DNA of 64,000 nt from Prauserella flavalba (GTDB taxonomy: Bacteria; Actinomycetota; Actinomycetes; Mycobacteriales; Pseudonocardiaceae). Location of the stretch: the NCBI RefSeq assembly GCF_003202235.1, contig NZ_MASU01000009.1, forward strand, positions 188,501 through 252,500, in the 5' to 3' direction. Each line of letters opens with the position of its first letter. The first letter of the stretch is position 1. A program made the position numbers and the translations under genes. The notes beneath the pieces are model-generated. The model was not told the origin of the DNA. It searched no databases and saw nothing but the letters and a program-made list of their open reading frames with translations. Below are positions 4,712 to 24,270 of the stretch, in pieces.

Positions 4712-4729
4712 CTTATGCCCTCCCCGGAA

Positions 4730-8286: not shown

Positions 8287-8406
8287 TTTCGAACCAGTCT
8301 CCTGGTTGTGTAAGTCTGATGCGAGGAGCCGGTGAGCTCAGGTGCGAAGGGCACTAGCCCGGCCACGACGCCACCTCGACTCCCGTTGAACGGAGGTTCG
8401 GGCGGT

Positions 8407-9294
8407 ATGACCGGATACATCACAGCGACGCAGACTAGCCCTACACTCACTCCAGCGGTGCCGGAGCCTTCTGCCTCGGTTGTTCAAGCTGCGGATAGTT
8501 TGGTATCCGCCGACCACGTAACGATGGACTACACATCTCGCGGACGGCGCGTTCGAGCGCTCGACGACGTGACGCTCAGCATCGCACCGGGTGAGGCAGT
8601 CGGACTCATTGGAGAATCGGGTTCGGGGAAGACGACTTTGTCGCGCGCCCTCGTCGGACTGATACAACCAACTCGGGGCAACGTACGGTATCGAGGCCGA
8701 GACATCTACTCCTTGAAGGCAGGCGCCCGGCACCGTTTACTAGGCGGCGACATCGCTCTCATATTCCAAGATCCGCGCAGCTCATTGAATCCAAGGCTTT
8801 CAGTCGGCGCCGTTATACGAGATCCTCTGCGGGTACGGCGCATTGGCTCTCGGCAGGATCACGAAGCACGAGTCAACCTGCTCCTACGGGATGTCGGGCT
8901 CCCCACGGAACTGGTATACAGACCTGTACGGGAACTTTCAGGCGGCCAACTGCAGCGAGTTGCGATTGCACGAGCACTTGCGGTCGAGCCAAGCCTAATC
9001 ATTGCAGACGAGCCTACATCCGCCCTGGACGTCTCGATCCAAGCCCAAATTCTAAACCTTCTCAATAACCTGAAAAGATCGCGTGGAATCGCGCTGCTGA
9101 TCGTCTCGCATGACATTCGTGCTATCCGGTTCCTATGCGACCGTACTGCCGTGATGAATAGGGGAGAGATAATTGAGTCCGCATCCACTGACTCCATCTT
9201 GGATCACCCAGAGAATCCTTACACAAAGCAGCTTATGAAAGCCGCTCCCCGGCTGGCCGATAAGAGAAAATTCAACAAGGATGAACCACGCTGA
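8407..9294 (+). CDS. Peptide-type ABC transporter ATP-binding protein (DppF/OppF-like)
   Basis: Second ATPase of a peptide-type importer. Walker A is GESGSGKT, the Q-loop reads FQDPRSSLNPRLSVG (typical for DppF), the signature LSGGQLQR, Walker B LIIADEP and the switch IVSHD. The ATG at 8407 has GGAGG ten bases upstream and gives 295 residues. A GTG at 8332 would add 25 residues without family similarity. The C-terminal Cys-containing extension typical of the group is short or absent, ending after NPYTKQLMKAAPRL. It most likely completes the reverse-strand importer at 1825-6346, from which it is separated and inverted. It converges on the efflux pump gene, with 20 bases between stops. Confidence 0.88.
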   Translation: MTGYITATQTSPTLTPAVPEPSASVVQAADSLVSADHVTMDYTSRGRRVRALDDVTLSIAPGEAVGLIGESGSGKTTLSRALVGLIQPTRGNVRYRGRDIYSLKAGARHRLLGGDIALIFQDPRSSLNPRLSVGAVIRDPLRVRRIGSRQDHEARVNLLLRDVGLPTELVYRPVRELSGGQLQRVAIARALAVEPSLIIADEPTSALDVSIQAQILNLLNNLKRSRGIALLIVSHDIRAIRFLCDRTAVMNRGEIIESASTDSILDHPENPYTKQLMKAAPRLADKRKFNKDEPR

Positions 9295-9314
9295 CTGTCA
9301 TCGAATTGGACGAT

Positions 9315-10487: not shown

Positions 10488-10559
10488 CGGAACTTTCCTC
10501 CCAGCTCTCTTCCCGCTACCGACACTGACATCGCGTTGACCTAAATCGCGGACCGGTTC

Positions 10560-11747
10560 TCACCAACGGACTGGTAGACGCTCTACCCCGTAGATCATGT
10601 GCTGGCGCCTCAACGGGATTTCGGCAAGTGGGACGGCGAGTTCCAAGGTCGGGAAGCGGCGAAGTAGCATCGAAAATGCGATTTGCATCTCCAACCGCGC
10701 CAGATGCTGGCCCAGGCATTGATGCAAGCCGTATCCGAAACCGAGATGTCCAGGGGTGGTCCTCGATAGATCGACCTGGTCGGGCTCGGGAAAGCGAGTG
10801 GAGTCTCGATTCGCCGCAGGTAAAGAGACGGTCACCGTCTCGCCTGCCCTGATGAGCTCGCCAGCGAGCTCGACATCTTCCACCGCTGTCCTGGGAAGTC
10901 CGTACTGAACGATCGTCAGGTACCGGAGCATTTCCTCGACGGCGCGTTCCGCGGACGCCTCACCCTCTCGCAGCGCCTCCGCATGCTCCGGGTGAAGCAG
11001 GAAGACCAGCGTACCGAGCGCTAGCATGCTGGCCGTCGTGTCGTGTCCGGCGACGAGGATGAGCATGGCTATTCCAGCAGTCTGATCCTCGCTGAGATCG
11101 TCTTCTCGCGCGAGCGCGCTCAGCAGGTCGTCCGAAGGCCGTCGACGTCTTTGTCCGATCAGTCCCTTCAGGCAATCTGACATCGCGGTCATGCCGCTTT
11201 TGATCTCAGCCGCGTCCACCTCAAGGCTATTGAGCAGCGACCCATACCGTTCGAACACCCCGCGCTCGTCGGCAGGAACCCCTAACAGCGCACAGATCGC
11301 GAGCGATGGCACCGGCAGTGCGAAACTCGGTACGAGATCGGCTGGCGGTCCGGTTTCCGCGAGAACCTGCAACCGGCTCTCGACGATCTGTTCGATGGTC
11401 GGCCGCAGCGCATTCATGCGACGGACAGTGAAGTGGCCCGTAAGCAGTCGTCGGTACTTGGTGTGTTCAGGTGGGTCCATGATGGCGAAGAACCCCGCGG
11501 GCGCGCTCTCTCCCCGCTCGACCTCGGCGATGCGCGTCGGATGCACTGCCGAGCGAAGCAACTCGGAACGCGAGCTGAAACGCTGATCGCCCAGCACGCA
11601 CCGGGCCAGCTCATAGCTCGTCACAACCCAGCCAACGTGACCGTCGGGATAGAGGAGCCGACACAACGGCTCCTCGGCACTGAGCCGCCGCAGTTCGGTT
11701 GGTGGATCAAGCGGATGGTCTCGCGCTGTAGGCAACGCCTCCAACAT
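10560..11747 (-). CDS. Cytochrome P450
   Basis: Bacterial class I P450 of 395 residues, a haem monooxygenase needing an external ferredoxin and reductase (none in the window). Motifs seen: oxygen-activating I-helix AGHDTT near residue 232, the ExxR in EEMLRY near 279, and the haem loop FGYGLHQCLGQ with the axial Cys at about residue 344. The N-terminal part has the usual DPPEHTKYRRLL. It belongs to the CYP105/107-like group common in actinomycete secondary metabolism. An AAAGGA ribosome binding site precedes the ATG. Its G+C is closer to the chromosome than the transporter genes to its left. Substrate unknown. Confidence 0.93.
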   Translation of the reverse strand: MLEALPTARDHPLDPPTELRRLSAEEPLCRLLYPDGHVGWVVTSYELARCVLGDQRFSSRSELLRSAVHPTRIAEVERGESAPAGFFAIMDPPEHTKYRRLLTGHFTVRRMNALRPTIEQIVESRLQVLAETGPPADLVPSFALPVPSLAICALLGVPADERGVFERYGSLLNSLEVDAAEIKSGMTAMSDCLKGLIGQRRRRPSDDLLSALAREDDLSEDQTAGIAMLILVAGHDTTASMLALGTLVFLLHPEHAEALREGEASAERAVEEMLRYLTIVQYGLPRTAVEDVELAGELIRAGETVTVSLPAANRDSTRFPEPDQVDLSRTTPGHLGFGYGLHQCLGQHLARLEMQIAFSMLLRRFPTLELAVPLAEIPLRRQHMIYGVERLPVRW

Positions 11748-11984: not shown

Positions 11985-13217
11985 ATGCGCAGGGTGTGTG
12001 TCTTCACCGGTTCCCGGTCCGACTACGGGCCGATGCAGTCCGTCATCGAGGCGCTTCACGCGGAGCCCGGCATCGACCTGCGGCTACTGGCCACCGGGGG
12101 TCACCTCGTCGGCGAGCAGGGCTACACCGTCCGCCAGATCGAGGCCGACGGGTTCACCGTCGACGAGCGCGTGGAGATGGTGCTGGCCGGCGACTCGCCC
12201 ACCGCCGTCGCGAAGTCGTTCGGGCTGGGGGTCATCGGCTACGCCGACGCGCTCGACCGCATCGGCCCCGACATCCTCGTGCTGCCCGGCGACCGGTACG
12301 AGGCGCTCGCCGCCGCCGTCGCGGCCGCGTTACGCCTGCTGCCCATCGCCCACGTCGGCGGCGGGGAGGCGACGAGCGGGGCCACCGACGAGTCCGTGCG
12401 GCACGCGATCACCAAGCTCGCCCACCTGCATTTCACGTCCACCGAGCGCTTTCGCGACAACGTGGTCCAGTTGGGCGAGAACCCGTCTCACGTGCACCTC
12501 ACGGGCACCCCGGGGCTCGACACCATCCGCACCGCGACCCGGCTCGACCGATCGGCGCTGGCGGCCGAACTGGGCGTCGAACTGCGCACCCCGACGATCG
12601 GGGTGACCTACCACCCGGCGACCGCCGATCCCGGCGGCAGCACGAGCGGTATCGCCGGGCTCCTCACCGCGCTGGACGCGTTCCCCGAGGCCACGGTGGT
12701 GTTCACGGGCACCAACGTCGACCAGACGAGGAGCGGCGTCGCCACGGCCATCCACGCCTGCGCCGCCCGCAGGCCGGGGCCGACCGCCGTGCTGCCCTCA
12801 CTCGGGCAGGTCCGCTACCTGAGCCTCGTCCACCACGCGGACGTCGTGGTCGGCAACTCCTCCAGTGGTGTCATCGAGGTGCCCGCGATGCACACGCCGA
12901 CCGTCAACATCGGCACCAGGCAGGACGGGCGGCCTCGCGCCAAGTCGGTGCTCGACTGCGGCGAGGACCCCGGCCAGATCGAGCGGGCGATCCGCCACGC
13001 GCTGACGCCAGGGCACCAGCGCGTGGCGGCCGAGGCCCGCTCCCCCTACGGCGACGGGCATGCCGCCGAACGCATCGTCGCCGTGCTCAGGACCGTCGAG
13101 CTCGCGACGCTACCCCGCAAGCGCTTCTTCAGCTACCCGCTCGCCGGCACGGACCGGGCGGGCGACTCGCTCAACGCGGTCGTCAGCATCCCGTCGAAGT
13201 CCCACTTCGGCGCGTAG
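11985..13217 (+). CDS. UDP/GDP-sugar 2-epimerase (hydrolysing), NeuC/LegG-like
   Basis: Removes the nucleotide from a nucleotide-activated N-acetyl hexosamine and inverts C2 to give a free ManNAc-type sugar, the step before nonulosonic acid condensation. The protein (410 residues) starts with FTGSRSDYGPM, then shows VLPGDRYEALAAA, PIAHVGGGEATSGATDESVRHAITKLAHLHF and a C-terminal VGNSSSGVIEVPAMHTPTVNIG, all diagnostic of the NeuC branch. The ATG has AAAGGAG four bases upstream. A candidate -10 (TAACCT) is at 11955-11960. The conserved domain ends near residue 385 (LPRKRFFSY), and the last residues read through into the convergent epimerase gene, overlapping it by 85 bases. It is the leftmost gene of the amino-sugar cluster. 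Confidence 0.92.
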   Translation: MRRVCVFTGSRSDYGPMQSVIEALHAEPGIDLRLLATGGHLVGEQGYTVRQIEADGFTVDERVEMVLAGDSPTAVAKSFGLGVIGYADALDRIGPDILVLPGDRYEALAAAVAAALRLLPIAHVGGGEATSGATDESVRHAITKLAHLHFTSTERFRDNVVQLGENPSHVHLTGTPGLDTIRTATRLDRSALAAELGVELRTPTIGVTYHPATADPGGSTSGIAGLLTALDAFPEATVVFTGTNVDQTRSGVATAIHACAARRPGPTAVLPSLGQVRYLSLVHHADVVVGNSSSGVIEVPAMHTPTVNIGTRQDGRPRAKSVLDCGEDPGQIERAIRHALTPGHQRVAAEARSPYGDGHAAERIVAVLRTVELATLPRKRFFSYPLAGTDRAGDSLNAVVSIPSKSHFGA

Positions 13218-14164
13218 CCCAGCACGCGCCGGGCCTTGTCCGTCGACAGCTCGAAGGCCAGCTTCACCGGCAGCCGCGCGACGACGGTGCCGGTGCCGAA
13301 GTGCCTGTTCAGCACTTCCGCGGCGGCCGTGAACGTCGTCGTGCCCGGACCGCCGATGTTGAACGCCTCGCCCGCCGCGCCGGGATGCTCCATCGCGAGC
13401 AGCGTCCCGGCGACCACGTCCCGGACGTCGGTCAGGTGGATCGCCCACGGCTCGCGGTCCGGGCCGGTCAGCACGACGGCCGGATTGTCGTCGCGCTGCC
13501 CGGTCGCCTCGTCGAGCGCGCCGACGGGGTCGTCGCCCGGCGAGAGGAGCCCGCACAGGTTGCTCCGTTTGCCCGCCACGACGTGCCCGGTGAGGAACGC
13601 CCGCACCCACTCCAGCCGGAACAGGCCGACGGTCTCGTGCGGAGCCACGACGGAGCCGTACCGCAGGATCGTGAAGGGCAGGCCGTACAGGCGCTGGTAG
13701 TTGCGCACGAGCGTCTCGCCCAGCAACTTGGACGTTCCGTAGTAGTCGCCGGGGACCTGCGGATGCTTCTCGGTGATGGGGTTGGCCGCCGGCCTCGCCG
13801 GGCCGTAGGTGTTGTCGGTGCTCGCGTAGACGAACCTGCGCACCGGCGACGCCTGGCCCGCCGTGGCCTCGAGCAGGCGCAGGGTGCCGAGGACGTTCGT
13901 GTCGTAGTACTCGTCGACGGGGCTGTCGCCGATCACGATCTGCGCGGCGAGATGCACCACCGTGTCCACCCCGCGCAGGGCCTTCTCGATCGCGGCCGTG
14001 TCGCCGAGCGACGCCTCGACGAGCTCCACCTTGCGCGCCAGCGCGTCGTCCGGTGCCCGTCCACCGGGGCGCACCATGCCCCGGACGTCGTAGCCCGCGC
14101 GGGTCAGCTCATCCGCGAGCAGGGAGCCGACCCTTCCGGCCACACCGGTCACCAATACGGTCAT
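13133..14164 (-). CDS. NAD-dependent epimerase/dehydratase family protein
   Basis: Extended SDR acting on a nucleotide sugar or related substrate, 343 residues. The dinucleotide motif is TGVAGRVG and the catalytic pair sits in YYGTSK, preceded by YASTDNTYG. C-terminal substrate-domain marks are HLTDVRDVV and FNIGGPGTTTF. It is third in the reverse-strand set dehydratase-aminotransferase-epimerase, 19 bases after the aminotransferase. Such a gene is not among the standard legionaminic acid steps, so it may provide a branch such as reduction or C-4/C-5 change. Its 3' end overlaps the convergent 2-epimerase gene. Specific reaction unknown. Confidence 0.88.
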   Translation of the reverse strand: MTVLVTGVAGRVGSLLADELTRAGYDVRGMVRPGGRAPDDALARKVELVEASLGDTAAIEKALRGVDTVVHLAAQIVIGDSPVDEYYDTNVLGTLRLLEATAGQASPVRRFVYASTDNTYGPARPAANPITEKHPQVPGDYYGTSKLLGETLVRNYQRLYGLPFTILRYGSVVAPHETVGLFRLEWVRAFLTGHVVAGKRSNLCGLLSPGDDPVGALDEATGQRDDNPAVVLTGPDREPWAIHLTDVRDVVAGTLLAMEHPGAAGEAFNIGGPGTTTFTAAAEVLNRHFGTGTVVARLPVKLAFELSTDKARRVLGYAPKWDFDGMLTTALSESPARSVPASG

Positions 14165-14183
14165 GTCTGTTCACCATCCGCTC

Positions 14184-15305
14184 TCACGGCGCGGTGGGCA
14201 GGATCCGGTGAAGCCGGTCGCACACCACGCGCTGGTCACTCTCTGGCAGTCCGGCGGAGCTCGGCAGGGAGAGCCCGCGCCGGTAGAGGTCGTCGGCCAC
14301 GTGCCCGCCGAGACGCTCCGTGTGGACATAGGGTTTCTGCCGGTGCAGCGGCGGCCACACCCTGCGGGCCTGCACCCCCGCCACCGACGCGGCGTCCACA
14401 ATGGAGTCCAGGTCCACGGCTGCGCTCAGCAGGATCGAGTACAGCCAGTACGACGGCCTGGCCCATTCGGCGCACGGCGCCGGAGTGACGGCGAGGCCGG
14501 CGAGCCAGCGTTCGTACCGCTGCGCGATGAGGCGTTTGGCGCGCATGATGTCGCCGATCCGTTCGATCTGCGCCACCCCGAGCGCCGCCCCGACGTTCGC
14601 GAGCCGGTAGTTGTAGCCGATCGTGTCGTGCAGGTACTGGTCGTCGCTGAGCTTCGCCTGGTTGATCAGGTGCCGCGCCCGCTCGGCCAGCGCACGCTCG
14701 CCGGTGACGATCATGCCGCCGCCACCGGTGGTCACGAGCTTGTTGCCGTTGAAGGAGAAACAGCCGATGTCACCCACCGTGCCGACCTGGGGGCCCGGCT
14801 TCCACGACGCGCCCAGCGACTCGGCGGCATCCTCCACGATCGGGATGCCGAAGCGGTTCCGCAGCTCCAGCAACGGTTCCACGTCCGCGGGGTGGCCGAG
14901 CACGTGCACGATCTCGATGACGTCCGGCAGGCGCCCGCCATTCCTCGCCCTGCGGACCACCTCGTCGTGCAGCAGCTCCGTGTCCATGTTCCACGTGCGC
15001 GGCTCGCTGTCGACGAGCAGCATGTCGGCGCCCGTGTAGCTGATGGCGTTGGCCGAGGCGATGAACGTGAAGTCCGAGACCGCGACGAGCTTGCCGGGGC
15101 CCGCGCCCAGCAGGCGCAGCGCCACGTGCAGCGCCGCGGTGCCGCTCGCGCACGCCACCGCGTGCTCCGCGCCGAGCTGGGCCGCGAACTCCCGCTCGAA
15201 CCGGCCGACGAACGGGCCCGCCGACGACACGTACCCGCTCGTGACACATTCCTGGAGGTACCGGGCCTCGTTGCCGGCCAGCTCCGGTACCACGAGGGGG
15301 ATCAC
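14184..15305 (-). CDS. PLP aminotransferase, DegT/DnrJ family, LegC-like
   Basis: Sugar aminotransferase that would put an amino group on C4 of the 4-keto-6-deoxy intermediate made by the neighbouring dehydratase, with PLP and an amino-acid donor. The start is the GTG at 15305, which overlaps the dehydratase stop (GTGA) and gives 373 residues. The N-terminus IPLVVPELAGNEARYLQEC, with GYVSSAGPFV, matches the LegC-type branch. Asp159 in VEDAAESLG should pair with the PLP ring nitrogen and Lys189 in FSFNGNKLVTTGGGG should form the Schiff base. The frame is open further upstream, but that part is antisense-like and lacks family similarity. Confidence 0.9.
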   Translation of the reverse strand: MIPLVVPELAGNEARYLQECVTSGYVSSAGPFVGRFEREFAAQLGAEHAVACASGTAALHVALRLLGAGPGKLVAVSDFTFIASANAISYTGADMLLVDSEPRTWNMDTELLHDEVVRRARNGGRLPDVIEIVHVLGHPADVEPLLELRNRFGIPIVEDAAESLGASWKPGPQVGTVGDIGCFSFNGNKLVTTGGGGMIVTGERALAERARHLINQAKLSDDQYLHDTIGYNYRLANVGAALGVAQIERIGDIMRAKRLIAQRYERWLAGLAVTPAPCAEWARPSYWLYSILLSAAVDLDSIVDAASVAGVQARRVWPPLHRQKPYVHTERLGGHVADDLYRRGLSLPSSAGLPESDQRVVCDRLHRILPTAP

Positions 15306-16297
15306 CTGTGGTACCTGCCCGCGCGTGCGGCGTCGACGCGCGGCGCCAGCCAGCGCGCCGTCTCGGCGAGCCCGTCGGCCAGGGACTTCGTCGCCTGCCA
15401 GTCGAGCTTCTCCTTGGCCAGGCTCGGTTCCGACAGCAGCACCTGCACCTCGCTGGCGTCGGGACGCACGCGCTCCCGGTCGGTGACCACCTCGGCGGCC
15501 ACGCCGGTGACCTCGCAACACAGCTGGAACAGCTCGCCGATCGACGCCGTCTGGCCGGTGCCGAGCTGCACCAGCGAGCCGGGCGGGAGGTCAGTGCAGC
15601 CCATGCGCACGAAGCCGTCGACGGTGTCGGTGACGAACGTCAGGTCGCGCCTCGGCGCGAGGCTGCCCAGCCTGACCGAGGTCGCGCCGGCCAGCAGCTG
15701 CCCGAGGATCGTCGGGATCACGGCACGCATCGACTGTCTCGGCCCGTAGGTGTTGAACGGCCGCAGGGTCACCACCGGCGCCTCGAACGAGCGCGCATAC
15801 GCCTCGCACAGCTGGTCGGCCGCGATCTTCGAAGCGGCGTACGGGGACTGTCCGCGCAGCGGGTGGGTCTCCCTGATGGGCACCGACTCCGGCGTCCCGT
15901 AGACCTCGCTGGTGGAGGTGTTGACCATGCGCACCCCGCCTGCGTCGCGGACGGCCTCCAGCACGTTGAGCGTCCCCGTGATATTGGTGTCCACAAAGGA
16001 CTCGGGAGCTTGGTAGCTGTACGGGATGGCGATCAGGGCGGCGAGATGGAACACGACGTCCACGTCGGTGACGGCCCTGCGCACGGACCGGCCGTCCCGG
16101 ATGTCGCCGAGCTGCACGTCGATGTCGGCGATCCGGTCGGTGCCGAGCTCGTCGAGCCAGCCGTAGGAGCCGTTCGAGTTGTAGACGCAGAACGCGCGTA
16201 CGTCGGCTCCCTCCGCCATCAGCCGTTCGACGAGGTGACTGCCGATGAACCCGTCGGCGCCCGTCACCAGAACCTTCTTGCCAGCGAATCTGCTCAC
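15302..16297 (-). CDS. NAD-dependent 4,6-dehydratase, LegB-like
   Basis: Extended SDR of 331 residues that would convert a nucleotide-activated N-acetylglucosamine into its 4-keto-6-deoxy form. The N-terminus KKVLVTGADGFIGSHLVERL, followed by YNSNGSYGWLDEL, is characteristic of the LegB branch. Also seen are NTSTSEVYGTPE, catalytic YAASK, and LRPFNTYGPRQSMRAVIPTI. The GTG start has GGTGGAG nearby, and its stop overlaps the aminotransferase start. It is divergent from the NeuD-type gene, with 153 bases between that must hold both promoters. It is the first gene of the reverse-strand sugar operon. Confidence 0.92.
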   Translation of the reverse strand: MSRFAGKKVLVTGADGFIGSHLVERLMAEGADVRAFCVYNSNGSYGWLDELGTDRIADIDVQLGDIRDGRSVRRAVTDVDVVFHLAALIAIPYSYQAPESFVDTNITGTLNVLEAVRDAGGVRMVNTSTSEVYGTPESVPIRETHPLRGQSPYAASKIAADQLCEAYARSFEAPVVTLRPFNTYGPRQSMRAVIPTILGQLLAGATSVRLGSLAPRRDLTFVTDTVDGFVRMGCTDLPPGSLVQLGTGQTASIGELFQLCCEVTGVAAEVVTDRERVRPDASEVQVLLSEPSLAKEKLDWQATKSLADGLAETARWLAPRVDAARAGRYHR

Positions 16298-16450
16298 GAC
16301 ACTCCACCCATGAGAAAGCCTGTGTCTGCGCGGACACCCCAGTCTCACGACACCCGCCCGCATGCCCCAGGAGTCGGCTTCCACTCCCGTCCCCGGCGTG
16401 TGAATTCGCCGTCTCCCGCTCCCTCCCACTCGCCGGGAAGGCTCCTCGTC

Positions 16451-17077
16451 GTGCGTCAACTCGTGATATTGGGAGCCGGGGAGCTCGCGCGGCAGATCGC
16501 CGGGCTCGTCGAGGACATCAACGAAAACACCGAAACCTGCACACTGGTCGGCGTGCTCGACCGGAACGCCGACGCGGCGTCGGCCGCACTGCCCGTGCTC
16601 GGCGGCGACGAACTGCTCGCCAGGCTCGACGCGGAGTACGTCCTCGGCGTCGGCGCGCCGGAGCTGCGCCGCAGGGTCGGCGAGAAGGCCGACCGCCTCG
16701 GCGCCACGGCGGCGAGCCTCGTCCATCCGCTCGCCCGCATCGGGCGGGGCGCGACCGTGGGGCCAGGCGCGCTGCTGCTGGAGGGCACCCACGTGCTCTA
16801 CGGCGCCACCGTGGGCAGGCACGTGCTCGTGAACGTCAACTCCATCATCGGGCACGACTCCCGCGTCGGTGACCACGTCACGCTGGCGACGAGTGCCACC
16901 GTGGGCGCCCGCGCGACGATCGGCGACGAGGTGATGCTCGGCATGGGCGCGATCGTCATGAACGACGCGAAGGTCGGCGACCGGTCCGTGGTGGGCGCCG
17001 GCGCCGTCGTGACGCGCGACGTCCCGCCGGACACGTGCGTGGCCGGAGTCCCCGCACGTCCGCTGCCCACCCGGTGA
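16451..17077 (+). CDS. NeuD/PglD-like sugar N- or O-acyltransferase
   Basis: Left-handed beta-helix acyltransferase of 208 residues. The N-terminal Rossmann-like part (LVILGAGELARQIAGLV) binds the sugar nucleotide in PglD-type enzymes. From about residue 95 the sequence shows hexapeptide repeats (IGRGATVGPGALLLEGTHV and on), with the putative catalytic His in IIGHDSRVGDHV and the ending GVPARPL. It would acylate the 4-amino group made by the aminotransferase. The family normally uses acetyl-CoA, but the nearby KAS III and acyl-CoA dehydrogenase raise the option of another acyl group. GTG start with GGGAAGG ten bases upstream. An SDR gene follows 19 bases later. Confidence 0.9.
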   Translation: MRQLVILGAGELARQIAGLVEDINENTETCTLVGVLDRNADAASAALPVLGGDELLARLDAEYVLGVGAPELRRRVGEKADRLGATAASLVHPLARIGRGATVGPGALLLEGTHVLYGATVGRHVLVNVNSIIGHDSRVGDHVTLATSATVGARATIGDEVMLGMGAIVMNDAKVGDRSVVGAGAVVTRDVPPDTCVAGVPARPLPTR

Positions 17078-17096
17078 CAAGACTGAGGAGACACCG

Positions 17097-17840
17097 ATGA
17101 GCCAACGGTTGCTCGGCAAGACGGCGTTCGTGACCGGTGCCGCGGGCACGCTCGGGTCCGCCATCGCGCGGGCGTTCGCCGGCGAGGGGGTCCGCGCGCT
17201 TGTGCTGGCCGACCTGCGGGAGGACGGCCTGGACATCGTCGCCAAGGAGCTCGGCATCGAGACCGTGACGGCCACGCTCGACGTCACCGACGGGGACGCG
17301 TTCGACGGCGCCGTCGCCGACGCGGTCGAGCGGTTCGGCACCCTCGACGTCCTCGTCAACAACGCGGGCAACGTCTCGCCCAACGCGCGCGTGCACAATC
17401 TGTCGACAAAGGACTTCGACGACTGCGTCGCGGTGAACCTGACCGGAACGTTCCACGGCGTGCGCGCGGGCGTGCGGGCGATGCGCGGGCGCGGCAGGCT
17501 GTCCATCGTCAACACCGCGTCGGTCGCCGGGCTCACGGCGTGGCCCTACTGCGCCCCCTACAGCGCGGCGAAGGCCGCCGTCATCCACTTCAGCAGGGTC
17601 GCCGCGCTCGAGTACGTCAAGGAGGACATCCGCGTCAACTGCGTATGCCCCGGCGCCTTCCCCTCCACGCTGACCAACGGCCTTCCCGACGGCGCGCTGG
17701 ACGTTCTCGCCAGCCGGCACCCCGGCGGGTTCGGCACGGCCGAGGACCTGGTCGGCGCCGTCGTCTACCTCGCGAGCGACGAGTCGAGGTGGACCACCGG
17801 GCACGCGCTCGTGGTCGACGGCGGCTACTCCCTCCCGTAG
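17097..17840 (+). CDS. SDR family oxidoreductase in the sugar cluster
   Basis: Classical SDR of 247 residues. Cofactor motif TGAAGTLGSAIA (the second Gly is followed by TLG rather than GIG), NNAGNVS, catalytic Ser in NTASVAG, and YSAAK. C-terminus TTGHALVVDGGYSLP. ATG preceded by a GAGGAG-type binding site. It is paired with the NeuD-type gene and converges on the acyl-CoA dehydrogenase gene, sharing a strong terminator hairpin. FabG-like and PtmA-like roles are both open: it could reduce a 3-oxoacyl thioester made by the KAS III, or act on a sugar ketone. Nothing in the sequence decides this. Confidence 0.88.
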   Translation: MSQRLLGKTAFVTGAAGTLGSAIARAFAGEGVRALVLADLREDGLDIVAKELGIETVTATLDVTDGDAFDGAVADAVERFGTLDVLVNNAGNVSPNARVHNLSTKDFDDCVAVNLTGTFHGVRAGVRAMRGRGRLSIVNTASVAGLTAWPYCAPYSAAKAAVIHFSRVAALEYVKEDIRVNCVCPGAFPSTLTNGLPDGALDVLASRHPGGFGTAEDLVGAVVYLASDESRWTTGHALVVDGGYSLP

Positions 17841-17852
17841 GGAGCAGCCGCC
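17820..17852. terminator. Bidirectional hairpin terminator spanning an SDR stop codon
   Basis: Arms GGCGGCTACTCCC (17820-17832) and GGGAGCAGCCGCC (17840-17852) pair over 12 of 13 positions around a 7-base loop that contains the TAG stop of the SDR gene. It lies in the 26-base gap between convergent genes, so it can terminate both transcripts. There is no U-tract, as is common in high-GC actinomycetes. Confidence 0.7.
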
Positions 17853-17866
17853 GTCGGCGCCGGGCG

Positions 17867-19033
17867 CTACGGCCGGTACCCGCCGAGCAGCTCCCGCGCG
17901 GTCACCATGTACTGGATGGTCGGCGGGCCCTCCTCCAGCCAGTTGAGCCGTGCGTCGCGGTAGAGCCGCTCCACCGGCAGCTTGCGCGTGTACCCGATGC
18001 CGCCGTGCACCAGCAGGGCGCGGTCGGTGACCCTGCCGACGGCCTCCAGCCCGAACTGCTTGACCATCGACGACTCCGCCGGGATGCGCTCGCCCGCGTC
18101 CCACTTCGCCGCCGCGTCGGCGAGCATGCCGCGCAGCGCGTACACGTCGATCGCCATCTCGGCCAGGTAGCGCTGCACCGCCTGCCGGTGCGCGATCGGC
18201 TTGCCGAAGGTGACGCGCGACTCGGCGTGGGCGATCGAGAGCTCCAGCGCCCGCTCCGCGGTGCCGAGCGAGCTCGCCGCGATGAACACCCTGCTGATCT
18301 CCAGTGCCCTTTCCAGGTGGTCCTGTCCCTCGCCCTCGGCGCCGACCAGCGCCGAGCGCGGCACCGGCACGTTGTCGAACGTCAGCAGGCCGTGCTGGCC
18401 GCCCTTGCAGCCCATCGTCTCCGGCAGCGGCTCGATGGTCAGTCCCGGCGCGTCGCGTTCCACGAGCAGCGCCGACACCGCACCCGGGTCCGTCTTGGCG
18501 AACACGAGGAAATGGCTCGCCAGATCGGAGTTGGTGATGAGCCACTTCCTCCCGTCGAGCACGTACCCCGAGCCGTGCGCCTTGGCCGTGGTGCCGAGAT
18601 CCGCGCCCGTGCCGTGATCCGGTTCGGTCAGCGCGAACGCCACGGAACGGTCTCCCGTGGCCGCGCCGGGCAGGATCGCCCTGCGCTGCTCCTCGTCACC
18701 GATCTCGGACAGGGCATGGGCGAACGAGTTGTGCACGTGGACGATCACCCTGATGCCACCCTGGATCTTGGCGAACTCGCCGATGATCGGCAGGTACTGC
18801 GCGATCGACAGGCCGCTGCCGCCGTAGGACCTCGGCACCAGCAGGCCGAACGCGCCGGTCTCCCGCAGGATCGGCAGCACCGTCTCGTACGGGATGCGCT
18901 CCTCGTTCTCGATCTGCTCCTCGAGTGGGTCGAGGCGATCCCAGATCGCCGTGGTGATGTCCTTCCACAATGCCGCGTACTCGTCTGCCGCCAGGCCTTC
19001 CGCCACGGTGTGTCTCCCCATCCCCTTCGTCAC
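17867..19033 (-). CDS. Acyl-CoA dehydrogenase family protein
   Basis: FAD flavoenzyme of 388 residues that would introduce an alpha-beta double bond into an acyl thioester. The fold shows the helical N-domain (EERIPYETVLPILRETGAFG, then PRSYGGSGL), the flavin-binding FALTEPDHGTGAD, NVPVPRSALVG, ESRVTFGKPIAHRQAVQ and the C-terminal YRDARLNWLEEGPPTIQYMV, where the Glu before Gly is in the usual catalytic-base position. Its GTG overlaps the KAS III stop by 4 bases (GTGA). It is the last gene of the operon nucleotidyltransferase-KAS III-dehydrogenase. In a sugar cluster this is unexpected; it may act on a carrier-bound acyl group used for sugar acylation. Confidence 0.9.
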   Translation of the reverse strand: MTKGMGRHTVAEGLAADEYAALWKDITTAIWDRLDPLEEQIENEERIPYETVLPILRETGAFGLLVPRSYGGSGLSIAQYLPIIGEFAKIQGGIRVIVHVHNSFAHALSEIGDEEQRRAILPGAATGDRSVAFALTEPDHGTGADLGTTAKAHGSGYVLDGRKWLITNSDLASHFLVFAKTDPGAVSALLVERDAPGLTIEPLPETMGCKGGQHGLLTFDNVPVPRSALVGAEGEGQDHLERALEISRVFIAASSLGTAERALELSIAHAESRVTFGKPIAHRQAVQRYLAEMAIDVYALRGMLADAAAKWDAGERIPAESSMVKQFGLEAVGRVTDRALLVHGGIGYTRKLPVERLYRDARLNWLEEGPPTIQYMVTARELLGGYRP

Positions 19034-20034
19034 GGTCGCTCCGGGGACCCGGGCAGCCAGCGGATCGCCGTGCCACCCCAGGTCATGCCGCCGCCGAACG
19101 CCAGCAGCAGCGCGATGTCGCCGGGCGAGAGCCGCCCCGCGCGCACGGCGTCGTCCAGCGTGATCGGCACCGAGGCCGCGCCGGTGTTGCCGTACCTGTC
19201 AACGGTCAGGTGCAGCTGCCCCGGCGCGAGCCGCAGCGACTCCGCCCACTCGGCGAGCATCACGCCGTTGGCCTGGTGCGGGACGAGCAGCTCGACGTCC
19301 TCGAGCGTGAGGTCCGCGGCCTTGAGCAGTTCGGCGACCACCTCGGGCAGCACCTCGGCGGCGAGGCTGCGCACCTCGCGGCCGATCATGGTGAAGTAGT
19401 GCTCCTTGCCCGCCACCGTCTCGAAGCTCGGCGGTCTCCTGCTGCCCCCGCCCGGGATCTGCACGAGGTGCGCGAGCGTGCCGTCGGAACCGATCGTGCT
19501 CGTGATGATCCCCTGGTGCTCGCCGCTCTTGGCGAGCACCACCGCACCGGCGCCGTCGCCGAGCAGGCACGACGTGCGCCGGTCGTCGTAGTCGAGGAAC
19601 CGCGAGTAGAGGTCGGCGCCGATCACCACGGCCACCCGCCGCTCGGGGTCGGCGGTCAGCATCGCGTTGGCGGTCACGAGCCCGTAGACGAACCCGGTGC
19701 ACACCGCGTCGATGTCGAACGCGGCCGCGCGGTGGGCGCCGATCTTCGCCTGCACCTGGCACGCGGTGGCCGGCATCGGCTGGTCCTTCGTGGACGTCGC
19801 GAGCACGATCAGGTCGACGTCGGCGGCGGGGATTCCCGCGGCTTCCAGCGCCCGTTCGGCGGCGTGGCTGCCCAGGTCGGAGGTCGCCTCGTGCGCGGCG
19901 GCCACGCGCCGCTGGCGGATCCCGGTCTTGCGGAGTACCCACTCCTCGCCCACCCCGAGCCGGGCCCCGAGCTCCGCACTGGTGAGTACCCCATCCGGTA
20001 GGTAGGAACCGGTGCCCAGGATGGCGGTGTTCAT
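19030..20034 (-). CDS. 3-oxoacyl-ACP synthase III family protein (KAS III, FabH-like)
   Basis: Thiolase-fold condensing enzyme of 334 residues. The triad is complete: Cys112 in FDIDAVCTGFVYGL, His253 in VPHQANGVML and Asn283 in DRYGNTGAASVP. The LLGDGAGAVVL and GLT-type C-terminal glycines are present. An active KAS III condenses an acyl-CoA starter with malonyl-ACP; some relatives transfer acyl groups to O, N or S instead. It is second in its operon, 42 bases after the nucleotidyltransferase. There is no ACP, malonyl transferase or other fatty acid gene nearby, so it probably serves a dedicated purpose and is not the housekeeping FabH. That purpose is inferred from context only. Confidence 0.92.
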   Translation of the reverse strand: MNTAILGTGSYLPDGVLTSAELGARLGVGEEWVLRKTGIRQRRVAAAHEATSDLGSHAAERALEAAGIPAADVDLIVLATSTKDQPMPATACQVQAKIGAHRAAAFDIDAVCTGFVYGLVTANAMLTADPERRVAVVIGADLYSRFLDYDDRRTSCLLGDGAGAVVLAKSGEHQGIITSTIGSDGTLAHLVQIPGGGSRRPPSFETVAGKEHYFTMIGREVRSLAAEVLPEVVAELLKAADLTLEDVELLVPHQANGVMLAEWAESLRLAPGQLHLTVDRYGNTGAASVPITLDDAVRAGRLSPGDIALLLAFGGGMTWGGTAIRWLPGSPERP

Positions 20035-20076
20035 CGGTGATCGTGTTCCCTTCGTCGGTGTGTGCGCTTCGGTTCT

Positions 20077-21123
20077 TCACAGCTGGCCACGGGCGTGGGC
20101 GAGTTCGTTCGGGCGCCCGACGTCCTGCCAGGACTCGTGCATGGGCCACAGGGCGACGGACCAGCCGGAGGCGAGGCAGTCGTCGAACAGCGCGGTGATC
20201 GGGAAGAGCTTGCCGCGCGGGATGCGGGTGATCAGTTTCGGCTCCAGCACGTAGATCCCGGCGTTGACCGCCCACGACGACAGCGGCTTCTCCACCATCC
20301 GCACCAGCCTGCCCGAGGAGGACTCCAGCACCCCGAACGGAACCTGGTGCTGGTACTCGGTGGCCGCGATGGTCGCGACGGCGGCACTGTCCACATGCGC
20401 GTCGATCAGGTCGGTGACGGAGAACTCGGTGACGAGGTCTCCGTTCATCACCAGGAACGGATCGGTCGGTTCGTAACCGAGGTCGTCGAGCAGCCGAAGT
20501 GAACCGCCGGTGCCGAGTGGCACTTCCGGATCCTCGCGCAGGTACTCGATCTCGCAACCGAACTGCGTTCCGTCGCCGAAATGTTCCTCGATCATCTTCC
20601 CGAGGTAGTTCACTGAGATGAATATTCGATTTATCCCGGAGCCGACGAGATGCAAAACCAGCCTTTCCAGAATGGGCCTTCCAGCTACCGGAAGCATGGG
20701 CTTCGGAATGTTGTCGGTGAGCGGCGCCAAGCGCGTTCCGCGACCCCCGGCCATGATGACGGCCCAGTTCTTCAGCCGGGTGGTCCCGACCAGCTCGCGC
20801 TCGCGGTGCACGCCCACGACGCACCCCTGTTCGTCGACGACGGGGATCTCCGACAGCCGAAGAGCGCGCATCAGGTCGAGCACTTCCGCCCTTCCCGCAC
20901 CAGGTTTCGTGGTCACGACCGGCTTGTGGATGAGCGGGTAGGCGGGCGCGCCGAGCCCGGCCCCCTCGAGCAGGGCGCGGCGGATGTCCGCCTCATCGAT
21001 GGAGCCGATGAGCCGGCCCCTGCCATCCACGACGAACGCCTGCCGGGCGCGCTGCTTGTCAATTGTGAAAAGCGCTGATCTGATCGACGCTTCCCTGCGG
21101 ATCAGCAGGTCGGCAAATGGCAT
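20077..21123 (-). CDS. CBS-domain plus nucleotidyltransferase protein (PtmE-like)
   Basis: Two-part protein of 348 residues. Residues 1-120 form a CBS pair (KQRARQAFVVDGRGRLIGSI; LSEIPVVDEQGCVVGV), a ligand-binding regulatory module. Residues 130-348 form a sugar-1-phosphate nucleotidyltransferase with MAGGRGTRLAPLTDNIPKPM, LGTGGSLRLL and the metal-binding MNGDLV. The same architecture occurs in PtmE, which makes GDP-glucosamine in the Campylobacter legionaminic acid route, so GDP activation of an amino sugar is plausible but unproven. The ATG at 21123 has GGAGGAG 6-7 bases upstream. It is the first gene of its operon and diverges from the regulator gene. Confidence 0.88.
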   Translation of the reverse strand: MPFADLLIRREASIRSALFTIDKQRARQAFVVDGRGRLIGSIDEADIRRALLEGAGLGAPAYPLIHKPVVTTKPGAGRAEVLDLMRALRLSEIPVVDEQGCVVGVHRERELVGTTRLKNWAVIMAGGRGTRLAPLTDNIPKPMLPVAGRPILERLVLHLVGSGINRIFISVNYLGKMIEEHFGDGTQFGCEIEYLREDPEVPLGTGGSLRLLDDLGYEPTDPFLVMNGDLVTEFSVTDLIDAHVDSAAVATIAATEYQHQVPFGVLESSSGRLVRMVEKPLSSWAVNAGIYVLEPKLITRIPRGKLFPITALFDDCLASGWSVALWPMHESWQDVGRPNELAHARGQL

Positions 21124-21367
21124 GTTTTTCTCCTCCACCCTGGAAACATCGGCAGACCGCCCCGTCACCCAGCGTTGCGATCGATCGACTGGAGCGGCCA
21201 GGGGACGACTTCAGGCCAATGGCGTCTTGACATTCGTGAAGAATTCAGGGGGCCACAATCCGCAGGTTCGCGAAATCGCCTTCAACCGGTCGCGAAACGG
21301 ACAGACGGCGGGCCGGGAAGCGGCTAGCGTCGAGTTGTCCCGAACCCCGAAGGAGCGGATCACGACC

Positions 21368-22753
21368 ATGGAACACGTGTCCGACGAACCGATCTCACAG
21401 CTCATCCGGTCTGCCCGCAGGCACCGTCAGCTCAGCCAGTACACGCTCGCCCGCGAACTGGCGACGGTGGCGGGCAAGCCGACGGTGACGCGCGATCTGG
21501 TCGCTCGCTGGGAGCGCGGGCACCAGATTCCCCGGCACGGCTCGCGACAGTGGCTCTCGGTGGTCCTGCACATCCCGCAGGACCGGCTCGACGCCGCGGC
21601 CGCCGCGTCCCGCAGGCGCGCCAGGCTCGGACACGCCGTCGTGACGAACAACGCGCCCGTCAAACCCGGCCCGACGCGCCGCGCACAGGGCACGCCCGCC
21701 CTGCTGCCGGTATTCCGTTCACGTGTGCAGGCAGGCATTCTGGCCGCGACGCTGCTCAACCCCCACCGCTCGTTCAGCCTCTCCGAGCTCGCCGAGCACG
21801 CGGGCGGCTCGCTCGCGTCGGTGGACAAGGAGAGCCGGATGCTGGAGGTCGCGGGCATCCTCACCAACCGCGTCGACGGCACGATCCGGCTCATGCGCGC
21901 CGCCGACGGCAACCCGATGATCGCCCCGCTGACCGAGCTCATCAAGGCGACCTATGGGGTGCCCCAGATCGTCGGCGAGGAGTTCGGCCGGATCCCCGGC
22001 GTGGCGAGGATCGTGCTCGGCGGCACCTGGGCGGAGCGGTTCGCGGGAATTCCCGGTGCCCCGGCGGAAAGCCTCGAGATCCTGCTCGCGCTCGCCCCCG
22101 GCCAGCCCGAGGACCACGACCCGATCGACGTGGCCGCACGGCGCACGCAGACGCGGCTCAAGTGCCACGTGCACGTCGCGGCCCGGCCGCTGGAGGCCAG
22201 GCTCGACTACCTCCAGATCCCCCGGCAGCGGCGCGGTCAGCCCGTGGTCGAGGTGGCTCCCGTCCGGCCGCGGCAGCGGCCCGCGACCGGGATGCCGTGG
22301 CCGGACGGCCGCACGGTGCTCGCCAAGATGATCGACTCCGGGCAGCTCGACCTCGTGAGCGGTCCCGCCGCGAACAGCCGCCCCTTCATGGAACTGGCAG
22401 GCCGTCACCTCGATGCCGCCGAGCAACTGCTCGGCACCTCGCCGCCGTCGGCGTTCCTGTTGCTGTCCCACGCGGCCCAGCTCATCGCCTCGGGTCTGCT
22501 GGCACACCAGGGCCTGCGCACGGCGGTCGGCGCGAGCGACCACCTGGCGGGCGACGCGGTGACCGCGCAGTTCGGCCACCAGTTCTCGCAGGTCGAACTG
22601 CTGCGGCAGCGGTCGGCGGAGCTGAAGAACCCGACGAGCCGGGACAGCAGGGTCACCGACGACGAGGTCAAGACCTATCTCACGACCGTGCGATCACTGC
22701 TGTCGGTCGCGCACAACGTCACGAGCACTCTCGGGACCTTCATCCAGCGTTAG
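21368..22753 (+). CDS. Multidomain regulator: XRE HTH, winged helix, MNT-like and HEPN-like domains
   Basis: A 461-residue protein. Residues 10-75 are an XRE/Cro-type HTH (QLSQYTLARELA, then TRDLVARWERGHQIP). Residues 115-178 look like a winged helix (SFSLSELAEHAGGSLASVDKESRML). Residues 205-285 resemble an MNT-type nucleotidyltransferase fold (VARIVLGGTWAERFAGIPG, then LEILLAL), but the GS motif is GT and the DxD acids are missing. Residues 315-450 resemble a HEPN four-helix domain (ISSGQLD-like start, AAEQLLGTSPPSAFLLLSHAAQ, AHQGLR, AQFGHQF, LLRQRSAELKNPT), with the RxxxxH motif not intact. ATG with AAGGAG 12 bases upstream; candidate -10 TAGCGT at 21325-21330. It diverges from the nucleotidyltransferase operon and precedes an exporter. 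Likely DNA-binding sensor; domain calls 3 and 4 are by pattern only. Confidence 0.8.
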   Translation: MEHVSDEPISQLIRSARRHRQLSQYTLARELATVAGKPTVTRDLVARWERGHQIPRHGSRQWLSVVLHIPQDRLDAAAAASRRRARLGHAVVTNNAPVKPGPTRRAQGTPALLPVFRSRVQAGILAATLLNPHRSFSLSELAEHAGGSLASVDKESRMLEVAGILTNRVDGTIRLMRAADGNPMIAPLTELIKATYGVPQIVGEEFGRIPGVARIVLGGTWAERFAGIPGAPAESLEILLALAPGQPEDHDPIDVAARRTQTRLKCHVHVAARPLEARLDYLQIPRQRRGQPVVEVAPVRPRQRPATGMPWPDGRTVLAKMIDSGQLDLVSGPAANSRPFMELAGRHLDAAEQLLGTSPPSAFLLLSHAAQLIASGLLAHQGLRTAVGASDHLAGDAVTAQFGHQFSQVELLRQRSAELKNPTSRDSRVTDDEVKTYLTTVRSLLSVAHNVTSTLGTFIQR

Positions 22754-22842: not shown

Positions 22843-24270
22843 GTGACGACGGCGCCGAACGCGCCGGTTCCGGGACCCGGCCGCACCCAGCGCCGGTCGG
22901 CGGTACTGCTGATCATGTGCCTGGTGCAGTTCGTCGTGCTCGTCAACGCGATGTTCATGATCGTCACACTGCCCGCGATCCAGCACGACCTGCGGTTCGA
23001 GGGCGACAGCCTCACCTGGGTCGTCAACGCCTACACGCTGCCGCTCGGCGGTTTCCTGCTGCTCGGCGGCCGCAGCGCCGACCTGTTCGGGCGCAAGCGG
23101 GTGTTCGCGACAGGGCTCGGATTGTTCTCGGCGGCCTCGGCACTGTGCGGGCTCTCCACGACGCAGCCGGCGTTGCTCGCCTTCCGCGCGCTGCAGGGGC
23201 TCGGCGCCGCGCTGCTGGCTCCGGCGGCGCTGTCGATCCTCACCGCGACGTTCTCGGACGGCCCCGAGCGGCGCAAGGCGCTCGCCGTGTGGAGCGCCGT
23301 GAACGCCGGCTCGACCGGGGTGGGCCTGCTGATCGGCGGCGTGCTGACCGCGACGGTGTCCTGGCCTTTCGTCTTCCTGCTCAACGGAATCGCCGGCGTG
23401 GCCATCCTGCTGGTCTCCTCGCGCCTCGTCCCGGAGTCGCGGGCTCCCGGTGTCGCCGGGTTCGACCTCGGCGGCGCCGTCACGGTCACCTCGGGCCTGC
23501 TCGCCTTGGTCTACGCCGTGCTGCGCGGGCGGCAGCACGGGTGGGCCGACGCGGTCACCCTCGGCGCGTGTGGCGCCGCGATCGTGTTGCTCGCGGCCTT
23601 CGTGCTGATCCAGCGCATCCGGCGCGCACCGCTCGTGCGGCTGGACGTGTTCCGGTTGCGGACGCTGACCGCCGCCAACGCGACGATGTTCCTCGTGGCG
23701 GGCGCGCCGGCGACCGTGTTCTACGTGCTCACCATCCACCTGCAGGAGACGCTGGGCTACAGCGCGCTGACGACCGCACTCGCCCTGCTTCCCGCGGCCG
23801 CGACCGTCGCGCTCGGTTCCCTGATCGCCCCGCGCCTGCTGCCGCGGCACGACCCGAGGCTCGTGCTCGTGGTCGCGCTCGCGCTGGTGGCGCTCGGCGT
23901 GACGCTGCTGGCGAGGGTGGGCCCGGGCAGCGACTACCTCAGCGAGGTGCTGCCCGCGCTGTGCACGATGTTCCTCGGCTGCAGCTGCGCGATCCTCACC
24001 CTGTTCATGCTCGCGACGACGCGGCTACCCGAGTCCGACGCCGGGCTGGCCTCCGGGCTGATCAACACGACCCTCCAGGTGGGCAGCGGCCTGTGGCTGG
24101 CGGTGCTGTCCTCCGCGGCACTGCGTTCCGGGCTCACGCCGGGCGGCTACGCCGTGGCGTTGTGGGGCGTGGCCCTGCTGGCGGGGTCGGCGGCGCTCGT
24201 GGTGCTGGTCCTGTTGCGGCGCAGGCACGTCACGGCGGCCGACCTGTCCGATGCGGACCGTCATGGCTGA
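22843..24270 (+). CDS. MFS drug/metabolite exporter, DHA2 (EmrB/QacA) family
   Basis: A 475-residue, 14-helix proton-driven exporter. The first helix region reads CLVQFVVLVNAMFMIVTLPAIQHDL; motif A follows as GGRSADLFGRKRVF, then FRALQGLGAALLAPAAL (motif C region). The GTG at 22843 has GGAGAG just upstream; the frame continues open upstream but that is the antisense-like extension over the regulator gene. It lies 90 bases after the regulator on the same strand and is probably its target or part of its operon. It would export the product of the sugar cluster or protect against it; the substrate is unknown. Confidence 0.88.
   Translation: MTTAPNAPVPGPGRTQRRSAVLLIMCLVQFVVLVNAMFMIVTLPAIQHDLRFEGDSLTWVVNAYTLPLGGFLLLGGRSADLFGRKRVFATGLGLFSAASALCGLSTTQPALLAFRALQGLGAALLAPAALSILTATFSDGPERRKALAVWSAVNAGSTGVGLLIGGVLTATVSWPFVFLLNGIAGVAILLVSSRLVPESRAPGVAGFDLGGAVTVTSGLLALVYAVLRGRQHGWADAVTLGACGAAIVLLAAFVLIQRIRRAPLVRLDVFRLRTLTAANATMFLVAGAPATVFYVLTIHLQETLGYSALTTALALLPAAATVALGSLIAPRLLPRHDPRLVLVVALALVALGVTLLARVGPGSDYLSEVLPALCTMFLGCSCAILTLFMLATTRLPESDAGLASGLINTTLQVGSGLWLAVLSSAALRSGLTPGGYAVALWGVALLAGSAALVVLVLLRRRHVTAADLSDADRHG

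Follow-up and report, generated by a model that had tools for sequence, protein, structure and literature searches.

A gene island linking legionaminic-type sugar genes to an importer and a catabolic-looking arm in Prauserella flavalba and related actinomycetes

A 64,000-nucleotide stretch of the Prauserella flavalba genome (hereafter the window; assembly GCF_003202235.1, contig NZ_MASU01000009.1, positions 188,501 to 252,500) was analysed in this study, which revealed that a group of nonulosonic-acid-like sugar genes within it forms the right arm of an island of about 40 kb. The left part of this island starts upstream of the window and carries an importer and genes of catabolic appearance. 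Genes of a synthesis type and genes of what appears to be a catabolism type are closely linked, their linkage is conserved among relatives, most carriers have no matching NeuB synthase, and the NeuC epimerase, the importer and the deacylation genes co-vary. The best-supported reading is a linked system that would make, import and catabolise a free N-acyl diamino sugar (or aldonate), comparable to the rhizopine systems, and we rate its chance of being right as even; the sugar could serve as food, signal or antibiotic. We infer each reaction, the direction of transport and the handling of one molecule by both arms. An earlier note on this DNA had proposed that the right-arm genes produce a free or nucleotide-linked 2,4-diamino-trideoxy sugar with an unusual acyl group rather than a nonulosonic acid. 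That interpretation is partly supported: the locus does not appear to be a nonulosonic acid locus and a free sugar is the expected end-point, but the note missed the importer and the catabolic arm, and membership in this larger unit changes the interpretation.

CMP-legionaminic acid is made via GDP-sugars by PtmE, LegB, LegC, LegH/NeuD, LegG/NeuC, LegI and LegF. The island encodes PtmE-, LegB-, LegC-, NeuD- and NeuC-like enzymes (Table 1), and these are accompanied by a beta-ketoacyl-ACP synthase III (KAS III), an acyl-CoA dehydrogenase (ACAD), a short-chain dehydrogenase/reductase (SDR) and an extended SDR termed EPI. As the earlier note had described, all are in frame and arranged as NeuC (+), EPI-LegC-LegB (-), NeuD-SDR (+), ACAD-KAS III-PtmE (-) and regulator-transporter (+). 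The best solved relative of NeuC is the GDP/UDP-diNAcBac 2-epimerase 5zlr (277.6 bits, versus 200.3 for the UDP-GlcNAc 2-epimerase/ManNAc kinase 4zht), consistent with a free sugar as the end-point. PtmE is assigned by domain make-up alone. The KAS III triad Cys112/His253/Asn283, noted before as intact, is retained in the home copy and in all eight copies aligned. EPI, whose tail overlaps NeuC by 85 bp and which has a paralogue in the left arm, is nearest in sequence and in fold to 4id9, an SDR described by superfamily alone; the predicted fold does not separate a dehydrogenase from an epimerase, and the assignment is ambiguous.

In contrast to the known legionaminic pathway, the home genome lacks a LegI, the contig lacks a cytidylyltransferase, and an importer and a catabolic-looking arm are found instead. 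The NeuB family (PF03102) matches the home genome once, at C2:161132, and this protein is a PseI (450.8 bits, cut-off 340.25; NeuB_NnaB reaches 265.8, below its cut-off of 399.65). Its neighbours are PseB (over cut-off), PseC (417.0 bits, slightly short of the cut-off of 423.5), a cytidylyltransferase and open reading frames (ORFs) that we label PseG- and PseH-like. This PseB/PseC/PseI set lies outside the island, separately on contig C2, and near the galactofuranosyltransferase gene glfT1; the whole Pse locus occupies G000:C2:148000-168200 (L002, L003; G000 is the home genome) beside galactan export and GlfT1 genes. Because the one NeuB-family gene of the genome encodes a PseI and belongs to a separate Pse locus, the island is without a matching synthase, and production of legionaminic acid in trans was rejected for the home genome. 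The CTP_transf_3 profile has no match on the window's contig; its matches elsewhere in the genome are C2:166491 (81.9 bits), C16 (22.6, at cut-off) and C23 (18.3, below cut-off). The C2 protein, for which the KdsB-type and PseF models of NCBIfam score far below cut-off, is called PseF-like from its position alone. The lack of a synthase and of a CMP-sugar synthetase at the locus, both reported earlier, is thus confirmed, and no glycosyltransferase was seen among the listed genes by ORF reading and Pfam. Ordinary nonulosonic acid biosynthesis by the island is unlikely in the home genome.

The left arm comprises C9:170000-188500 (L004) and window positions 1-11747. It contains a tryptophanase-like gene, a GlcF remnant, an FAH-family hydrolase (FAH), M81/MlrC, RidA, a class III aminotransferase (AT3), IclR regulators, the second EPI, an AstE/DoeB-like deacylase (AstE), a threonine-synthase/dehydratase-like pyridoxal phosphate (PLP) enzyme (PALP), an SMP-30 lactonase, an SDR, two SnoaL-like ORFs recognised by sequence reading, an Opp-type ABC importer, a major facilitator superfamily (MFS) protein and a cytochrome P450. 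The top family of FAH is the 2,4-didehydro-3-deoxy-L-rhamnonate hydrolase NF053535 (270.9 bits, under the cut-off of 500); its closest solved relative is 8gsr (209 bits). The top family of AstE is DoeB (90.6 bits, cut-off 402.7 not reached). Solved relatives of PALP are threonine synthases, and those of AT3 are mostly glutamate-1-semialdehyde aminomutases. This content fits the breakdown of a 2,4-diamino-6-deoxysugar, a match that is suggestive only; the pathway idea was recorded while FAH and AstE were known by Pfam family alone, and the NCBIfam and structure matches came afterwards. At the island border, a B12-binding radical SAM protein and the tryptophanase-like gene (G000:C9:168461-170179; L065:3786-5495) form a pair present in at least five genomes.

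With the enzyme order taken from the known legionaminic route, PtmE would provide NDP-GlcN(Ac), LegB and LegC would convert it to a 4-amino-4,6-dideoxy sugar, and NeuD would N-acylate C4 with a group that, in the islands having such a module, would come from KAS III or PapA-type enzymes. NeuC would then remove the nucleotide with inversion at C2 to give a free 2-acetamido-4-acylamino-2,4,6-trideoxyhexose, which the co-operonic EPI may oxidise at C1; the NeuB step is absent from this route. The product would leave through the MFS transporter and return through Opp. Catabolism could begin with C1 oxidation and lactone opening by EPI or SDR and SMP-30, followed by deacylation by the AstE/DoeB-like enzyme or an amidohydrolase, perhaps also by M81. 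The 2-amino group would be lost through PALP with RidA and the 4-amino group through AT3, and FAH would hydrolyse the resulting 2,4-diketo acid to pyruvate and lactate, the latter being a possible substrate of GlcD/GlcF. The non-phosphorylating L-fucose/L-rhamnose route 3 is outlined as a 1-dehydrogenase, a lactonase, a dehydratase and a 4-dehydrogenase, followed by a 2,4-diketo-3-deoxy acid hydrolase yielding pyruvate and L-lactate (PMC11199699). The closest solved relative of the island FAH, 8gsr, is at most suggestive of this route; the proposed scheme differs in placing a PLP enzyme and a transaminase where route 3 has the dehydratase and the 4-dehydrogenase, since its substrate would have to shed two amino groups. 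Loss of the 2-amino group (PLP enzyme) and the 4-amino group (transaminase) from a 2,4-diamino-6-deoxy aldonate would lead to the same 2,4-diketo intermediate.

Carriers of the island belong to Prauserella, Amycolatopsis, Haloechinothrix, Qaidamihabitans and the family Jiangellaceae. One genome (G002) carries the set at 90-97% identity to the home genome and diverged versions occur in two orders, a recurrence which indicates that the assembly is not due to chance. Gene presence in the islands was scored by hidden Markov model (HMM) searches over all ORFs, with genes from a self-trained caller. NeuC and AT3 were sought in 390 genomes of the family, and the class was sampled with 394 genomes; thresholds were E<=1e-70 for NeuC and, for AT3, at least 65% identity in the family and at least 66% in Jiangellaceae, and AT3 matches of 45-46% (G231, G032) were dropped from the 390-genome table. 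AT3 is present in 20 genomes of the 390 and NeuC in 17, with both in 16 (p=8e-24, related genomes not being independent). Across 19 genomes of the Amycolatopsis group g26 the two occur in an identical set of 11 (11/0/0/8). Among 13 Jiangellaceae genomes with AT3, Leg, NeuC or PtmE genes lie no farther than about 20 kb from it in 10, of which G625 and G437 have PtmE alone; of the remaining genomes, G633 and G492 stop at contig edges and G642 does not. These 13 include J. ureilytica, J. aurantiaca, J. muralis and P. limicola, which are also among the named loci, and the sets are not additive. A second AT3 locus of G518 (66%), outside the 10 of 13, has REG, a TnaA-like gene and a radical SAM gene without Leg genes. 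The island of Haloechinothrix halophila is in two halves, one with LegB-LegC and AT3 and the other with NeuC and PALP, AstE, SDR and SMP-30, so that each half combines sugar and catabolic genes.

A further scan took one genome for each GTDB species. Among the best 80 of 554 relatives, 14 of the top 15 and the lower-ranking L121 belong to Prauserella, Amycolatopsis, Haloechinothrix, Qaidamihabitans, Jiangella or Phytoactinopolyspora. NeuB is absent from all 15 of these loci, some of which are short, whereas 58 of the 65 others have it together with NeuC (57 at >=250 bits and one partial match at 81 bits), three of the 65 having helped to build the HMM.

The deacylation genes come in two types. 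In the stretches fetched, four g26 genomes (G221, G225, G232, G233) have an amidohydrolase and a GH20-like protein, with Pfam matches barely over cut-off, and neither AstE nor PALP, whereas the other NeuC islands in which either module was found have PALP and/or AstE and neither the amidohydrolase nor the GH20-like gene. This split was fixed ahead of tree building. The NeuC tree (16 rows) divides exactly by deacylation type, with one label change, support of 100 and 0 of 500 shuffles as low; with Jiangellaceae and an outgroup added (28 rows), the four amidohydrolase/GH20 genomes stay together at 100/99. OppB (12 rows) and OppC (11) split likewise (0-4 of 500 shuffles as low). Exact splits were not seen for LegC (4 label changes), LegB (3), AT3 (4, or 3 with 12 rows), M81 (3), RidA (4), FAH (2, with two amidohydrolase/GH20 rows only), PtmE (3), REG (4), IclR (4), EPI (2) or the flank marker f14 (4), which is one gene and not a full species tree. 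An approximately unbiased test rejected a single clade of the four genomes in all five families tested (f14, LegC, PtmE, REG, LegB). Most trees are quick LG+G4 trees and the 28-row NeuC tree alone is a careful one; in it Phal, Plim, Jasi and G540, with neither deacylation module in the stretch read, were counted as other. G255 (truncated NeuC) was left out of the NeuC trees, as were some low-GC genes from theirs, e.g., the home Opp genes.

Distance comparisons gave a similar picture. NeuC follows OppB (Mantel r=0.56, p=0.0015) and OppC (0.52, p=0.0025; 9-11 genomes, 21 pairs), and it does not follow AT3 (-0.02), LegC (-0.18), LegB, M81, RidA, REG or PtmE; AT3 follows f14, PtmE, REG and M81 (0.72-0.77). 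The median distance to NeuC is 1.9 kb for LegC (11 genomes) and 6.4 kb for OppB (9 genomes), so that proximity alone does not account for the co-variation of NeuC with Opp. Because in Amycolatopsis NeuC and OppBC split with the deacylation type, against the flank marker, the catabolic core and the neighbouring LegB/LegC, the putative making, importing and opening steps look matched. The co-variation bears only indirectly on the proposal that one compound would be both made and catabolised and would be present outside the cell.

Several observations weigh against the make-import-catabolise reading. Export of the sugar is conjectural. The matched cassette comes from four genomes of one genus, and it is possible that NeuC, Opp and the deacylase moved as one recombination block with later replacement of LegBC. 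KAS III is independent of the cassette: the closely related G233 and G235 have different deacylation types but share KAS III and SDR, and KAS III was rejected as a variable matching the catabolic arm. The FAH and DoeB models both score under their curated cut-offs; FAH homologues at E<=1e-70 in 246 of the 390 genomes are not specific, and FAH was also rejected as an island marker. EPI could be an epimerase. GlcF (L004:3762-4295) is a 177-aa remnant in the home genome (345-362 aa in relatives) and no GlcD occurs in the stretches read of the home genome and G002, where the lactate-oxidation step seems to be decaying. Four AT3 genomes have no NeuC match (G102, G256, G257, G300). G102 has the importer, IclR, EPI, M81, PALP, SDR, SMP-30, RidA and AT3, with no Leg genes within the 32 kb read and no NeuC match genome-wide, and appears to be a catabolism-only version of the island; its gene content in itself speaks for the make-import-catabolise reading. 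G300 has AT3, RidA, M81, FAH, GlcD/GlcF, PtmE, a regulator, an MFS gene and a 151-aa KAS III remnant beside PtmE, with no Leg genes within the 39 kb read. Lower-identity AT3 loci (60-62%; G616, G570, G766 and G521, four read of 19 listed) have PALP, AstE, M81 or SDR companions and Leg genes in none of the four. Such AT3 relatives in loci without Leg genes suggest that the substrate of the arm may be broader.

Free acylated diamino sugars include prumycin. The island could make a bioactive natural product or an autoregulatory signal of this kind, with the linked arm serving self-protection, recycling or signal turnover, and KAS III or PapA-type acyl modules, the P450, the MFS transporter and the XRE- and IclR-type regulators would suit such a role. 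However, a full importer and a route to central metabolites exceed the needs of detoxification, and G102 retains the catabolic/import arm only; we regard this explanation as rather unlikely, albeit the strongest of the rivals.

The acyl genes might also be unrelated to the sugar, with KAS III, ACAD and SDR serving a lipid or polyketide function and located here by chance. In line with this, KAS III was not found in nine of 14 PtmE-bearing islands and the window's ACAD was found in the home genome and G002 only. In the other five islands (G000, G002, G003, G233 and G235; three of them in genus g1 and two in g26), however, KAS III directly adjoins PtmE, as does the remnant in G300. The island copies are 62-97% identical among G000, G002, G233 and G235, 49-51% identical to that of G003, and 36-42% identical to the two other home-genome copies. 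In Jiangella aurantiaca a single strand carries KAS III, a 3-hydroxyacyl-CoA dehydrogenase (HCDH; domain confirmed on the G003 homologue), an 803-aa protein, an ACAD, a dehydratase-like protein and a small ORF, then NeuD, LegB, LegC, SDR, EPI and NeuC, with KAS III and HCDH sharing ATGA. These arrangements speak against chance placement, which we consider improbable. The 803-807-aa protein, present in this acyl operon of Jiangella (L072:792-3203) and in G003, has no Pfam match. A different ACAD, 34% identical to that of the home genome, occurs in G003 and the Jiangella loci. In other islands, genes for PapA-type acyltransferases are accompanied by acetyl-CoA hydrolase-like and CoA-transferase genes. 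The evidence is thus mixed on the conserved linkage of KAS III and the dehydrogenase with the sugar genes, the lack of which the earlier note had named as refuting its interpretation.

Because KAS III adjoins PtmE in these five islands and shares an operon with sugar genes in Jiangella aurantiaca, an N-acyl tailoring role of the KAS III module, separate from the NeuC/Opp cassette, is plausible. In Pseudomonas syringae, the KAS III VioS and the reductase VioR are assigned to the N-(3-hydroxybutanoyl) group of viosamine, and together with the acyltransferase VioB they modify a 4-amino-6-deoxysugar (PMC3927599). The home island likewise combines KAS III, a reductase and a PglD-type transferase, and TIGR03570, passed by the home NeuD, is named NeuD/PglB/VioB. 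It differs from the viosamine island in the expected free sugar instead of a glycan and in the added ACAD.

Another alternative, retained for Amycolatopsis because of the g26 association given below, is a split legionaminic pathway in which the free sugar would pass to an unlinked NeuB/NeuA pair and end as a CMP-nonulosonate for the cell wall. Whole-genome searches found strong NeuB in 12 of 23 island genomes: four are PseI (G000, G002, G003, G362) and eight are from group g26. Within g26, NeuB occurs in 8/11 island genomes versus 1/8 without the island (8/3/1/7 over 19 genomes, Fisher p=0.02), a weak association that favours the split pathway and tells against the make-import-catabolise reading, and it is found with a cytidylyltransferase ORF at a galactan locus in the three loci read. 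On the other hand, 15 of the 23 have no NeuB other than PseI, and constant co-occurrence with a NeuB/NeuA pair, which the earlier note had named as refuting its interpretation, was not seen. No NeuB match was obtained in G228, G233 and G235 (99-100% complete) or G255 (89% complete), and G006 and six Jiangellales gave matches of 23-28 bits alone, the three checked being DAHP synthases. Conversely, G222 has a g26-type NeuB and no NeuC match. Four of the g26 NeuBs were scanned (288-289 aa, under both NCBIfam cut-offs) and the remaining four share 39-40% identity with the home PseI. Where NeuB and NeuC are on one contig, as in six genomes, about 107-132 kb separate them. Two of the accompanying cytidylyltransferases were scanned and are fusions with a HAD domain, which may point to a 9-phosphate route without need for NeuC. 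The split pathway is thus quite improbable. In three Amycolatopsis genomes (L166-L168), the neighbourhood of NeuB and the cytidylyltransferase ORF resembles the home Pse locus, suggesting that cell-wall nonulosonates may be exchanged.

A diacylamino sugar made under stress as a compatible solute or store and degraded later is very improbable: two carriers have halophile names (Haloechinothrix halophila and Phytoactinopolyspora halophila), but a nucleotide-sugar route is costly, an exchangeable importer and variable acyl modules would be unexpected for a solute, and the Amycolatopsis carriers are not known to be halophiles.

Under the make-import-catabolise reading, the sugar may further be a private good, with an exchangeable lock-and-key cassette in a conserved frame, mismatched relatives excluded and catabolic-only carriers such as G102 acting as consumers; we advance this extension only tentatively. 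Rhizopine mos/moc loci are described as linking synthesis and catabolism of a private compound (PMC3999197). As in these and in opine systems, synthesis-type and catabolism-type genes are linked in the island, but its chemistry and enzymes differ, no plant host is known, the specificity cassettes are exchangeable, and private use is here conjectural. If correct, the island would offer a bacterial counterpart to rhizopines that is complete in itself and whose matched make/import/open cassettes are exchanged during evolution, producers, consumers and cheaters could be predicted from the genome, and the "legionaminic" genes of these actinomycetes should not be annotated as nonulosonic acid pathways. 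Even as a natural product locus, it would point to free acylated diamino sugars of a class so far uncharacterised. A search of open-access literature with few terms yielded no paper describing a locus of this kind from these genera, which is a weak negative.

Table 1. Island genes within the window, with position, strand and basis of assignment
Feature	Position	Strand	Basis
SDR0 of left arm	1-717 (start 56 bp before window)	+	gene maps
Opp-type ABC importer (ATPase, two permeases, solute-binding protein)	1825-6346	-	SBP_bac_5 at 4730-6346; permease by oppB HMM; rest by ORF reading
Second Opp-type ABC ATPase	8332-9294	+	ORF, sequence reading
Cytochrome P450, accessory	10560-11747	-	PF00067
NeuC/LegG-like hydrolysing NDP-sugar 2-epimerase	11985-13217	+	TIGR03568, 401.5 bits (cut-off 235.9)
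EPI, extended SDR, sugar dehydrogenase or epimerase	13133-14164	-	PF01370
LegC-like aminotransferase	14184-15305	-	top NCBIfam TIGR04181, 374.8 bits (below cut-off 420)
LegB-like 4,6-dehydratase	15302-16297	-	top NCBIfam TIGR04180, 418.2 bits (below cut-off 475)
NeuD/PglD/VioB-type N-acyltransferase	16451-17077	+	TIGR03570, 176.7 bits (cut-off 160.8)
FabG-like SDR, candidate acyl 3-keto reductase	17097-17840	+	PF13561
Short-chain-type ACAD	17867-19033	-	PF00441/02770/02771
KAS III	19030-20034	-	TIGR00747, over cut-off
PtmE-like CBS + NTP_transferase (sugar nucleotidyltransferase)	20077-21138	-	PF00571 + PF00483
REG, XRE-type regulator	21368-22753	+	"XRE-type" read from N-terminal sequence
MFS transporter, candidate exporter	22843-24270	+	PF07690

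KAS III overlaps ACAD by 4 bp. The solved relatives of ACAD are acyl-CoA dehydrogenases, among them short-chain and butyryl-CoA types, and the FabG-like SDR is matched by glucose-1-dehydrogenase and FabG models of NCBIfam, all below cut-off. REG matched no Pfam or NCBIfam family and its fold model is poor (mean pLDDT 53.8); in gene maps it is divergent from PtmE in all 14 genomes holding both, and a short relative of it adjoins the radical SAM gene (L004:274-660). The MFS family is present in five islands, including that of the home genome, and the P450 adjoins NeuC in G002 also. GC content per kb is 52-68% over window positions 1-12 kb and 65-73% over 12-23 kb, and a transposase-like ORF recognised by sequence reading lies at 6598-7644, within the importer region of lower GC (about 1-12 kb). 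Farther along the window, at 43581-46613, an ORF resembling a hydrogenase maturation protease stands beside an apparent CbiMNQO cobalt/nickel transporter, both identified by sequence reading alone.

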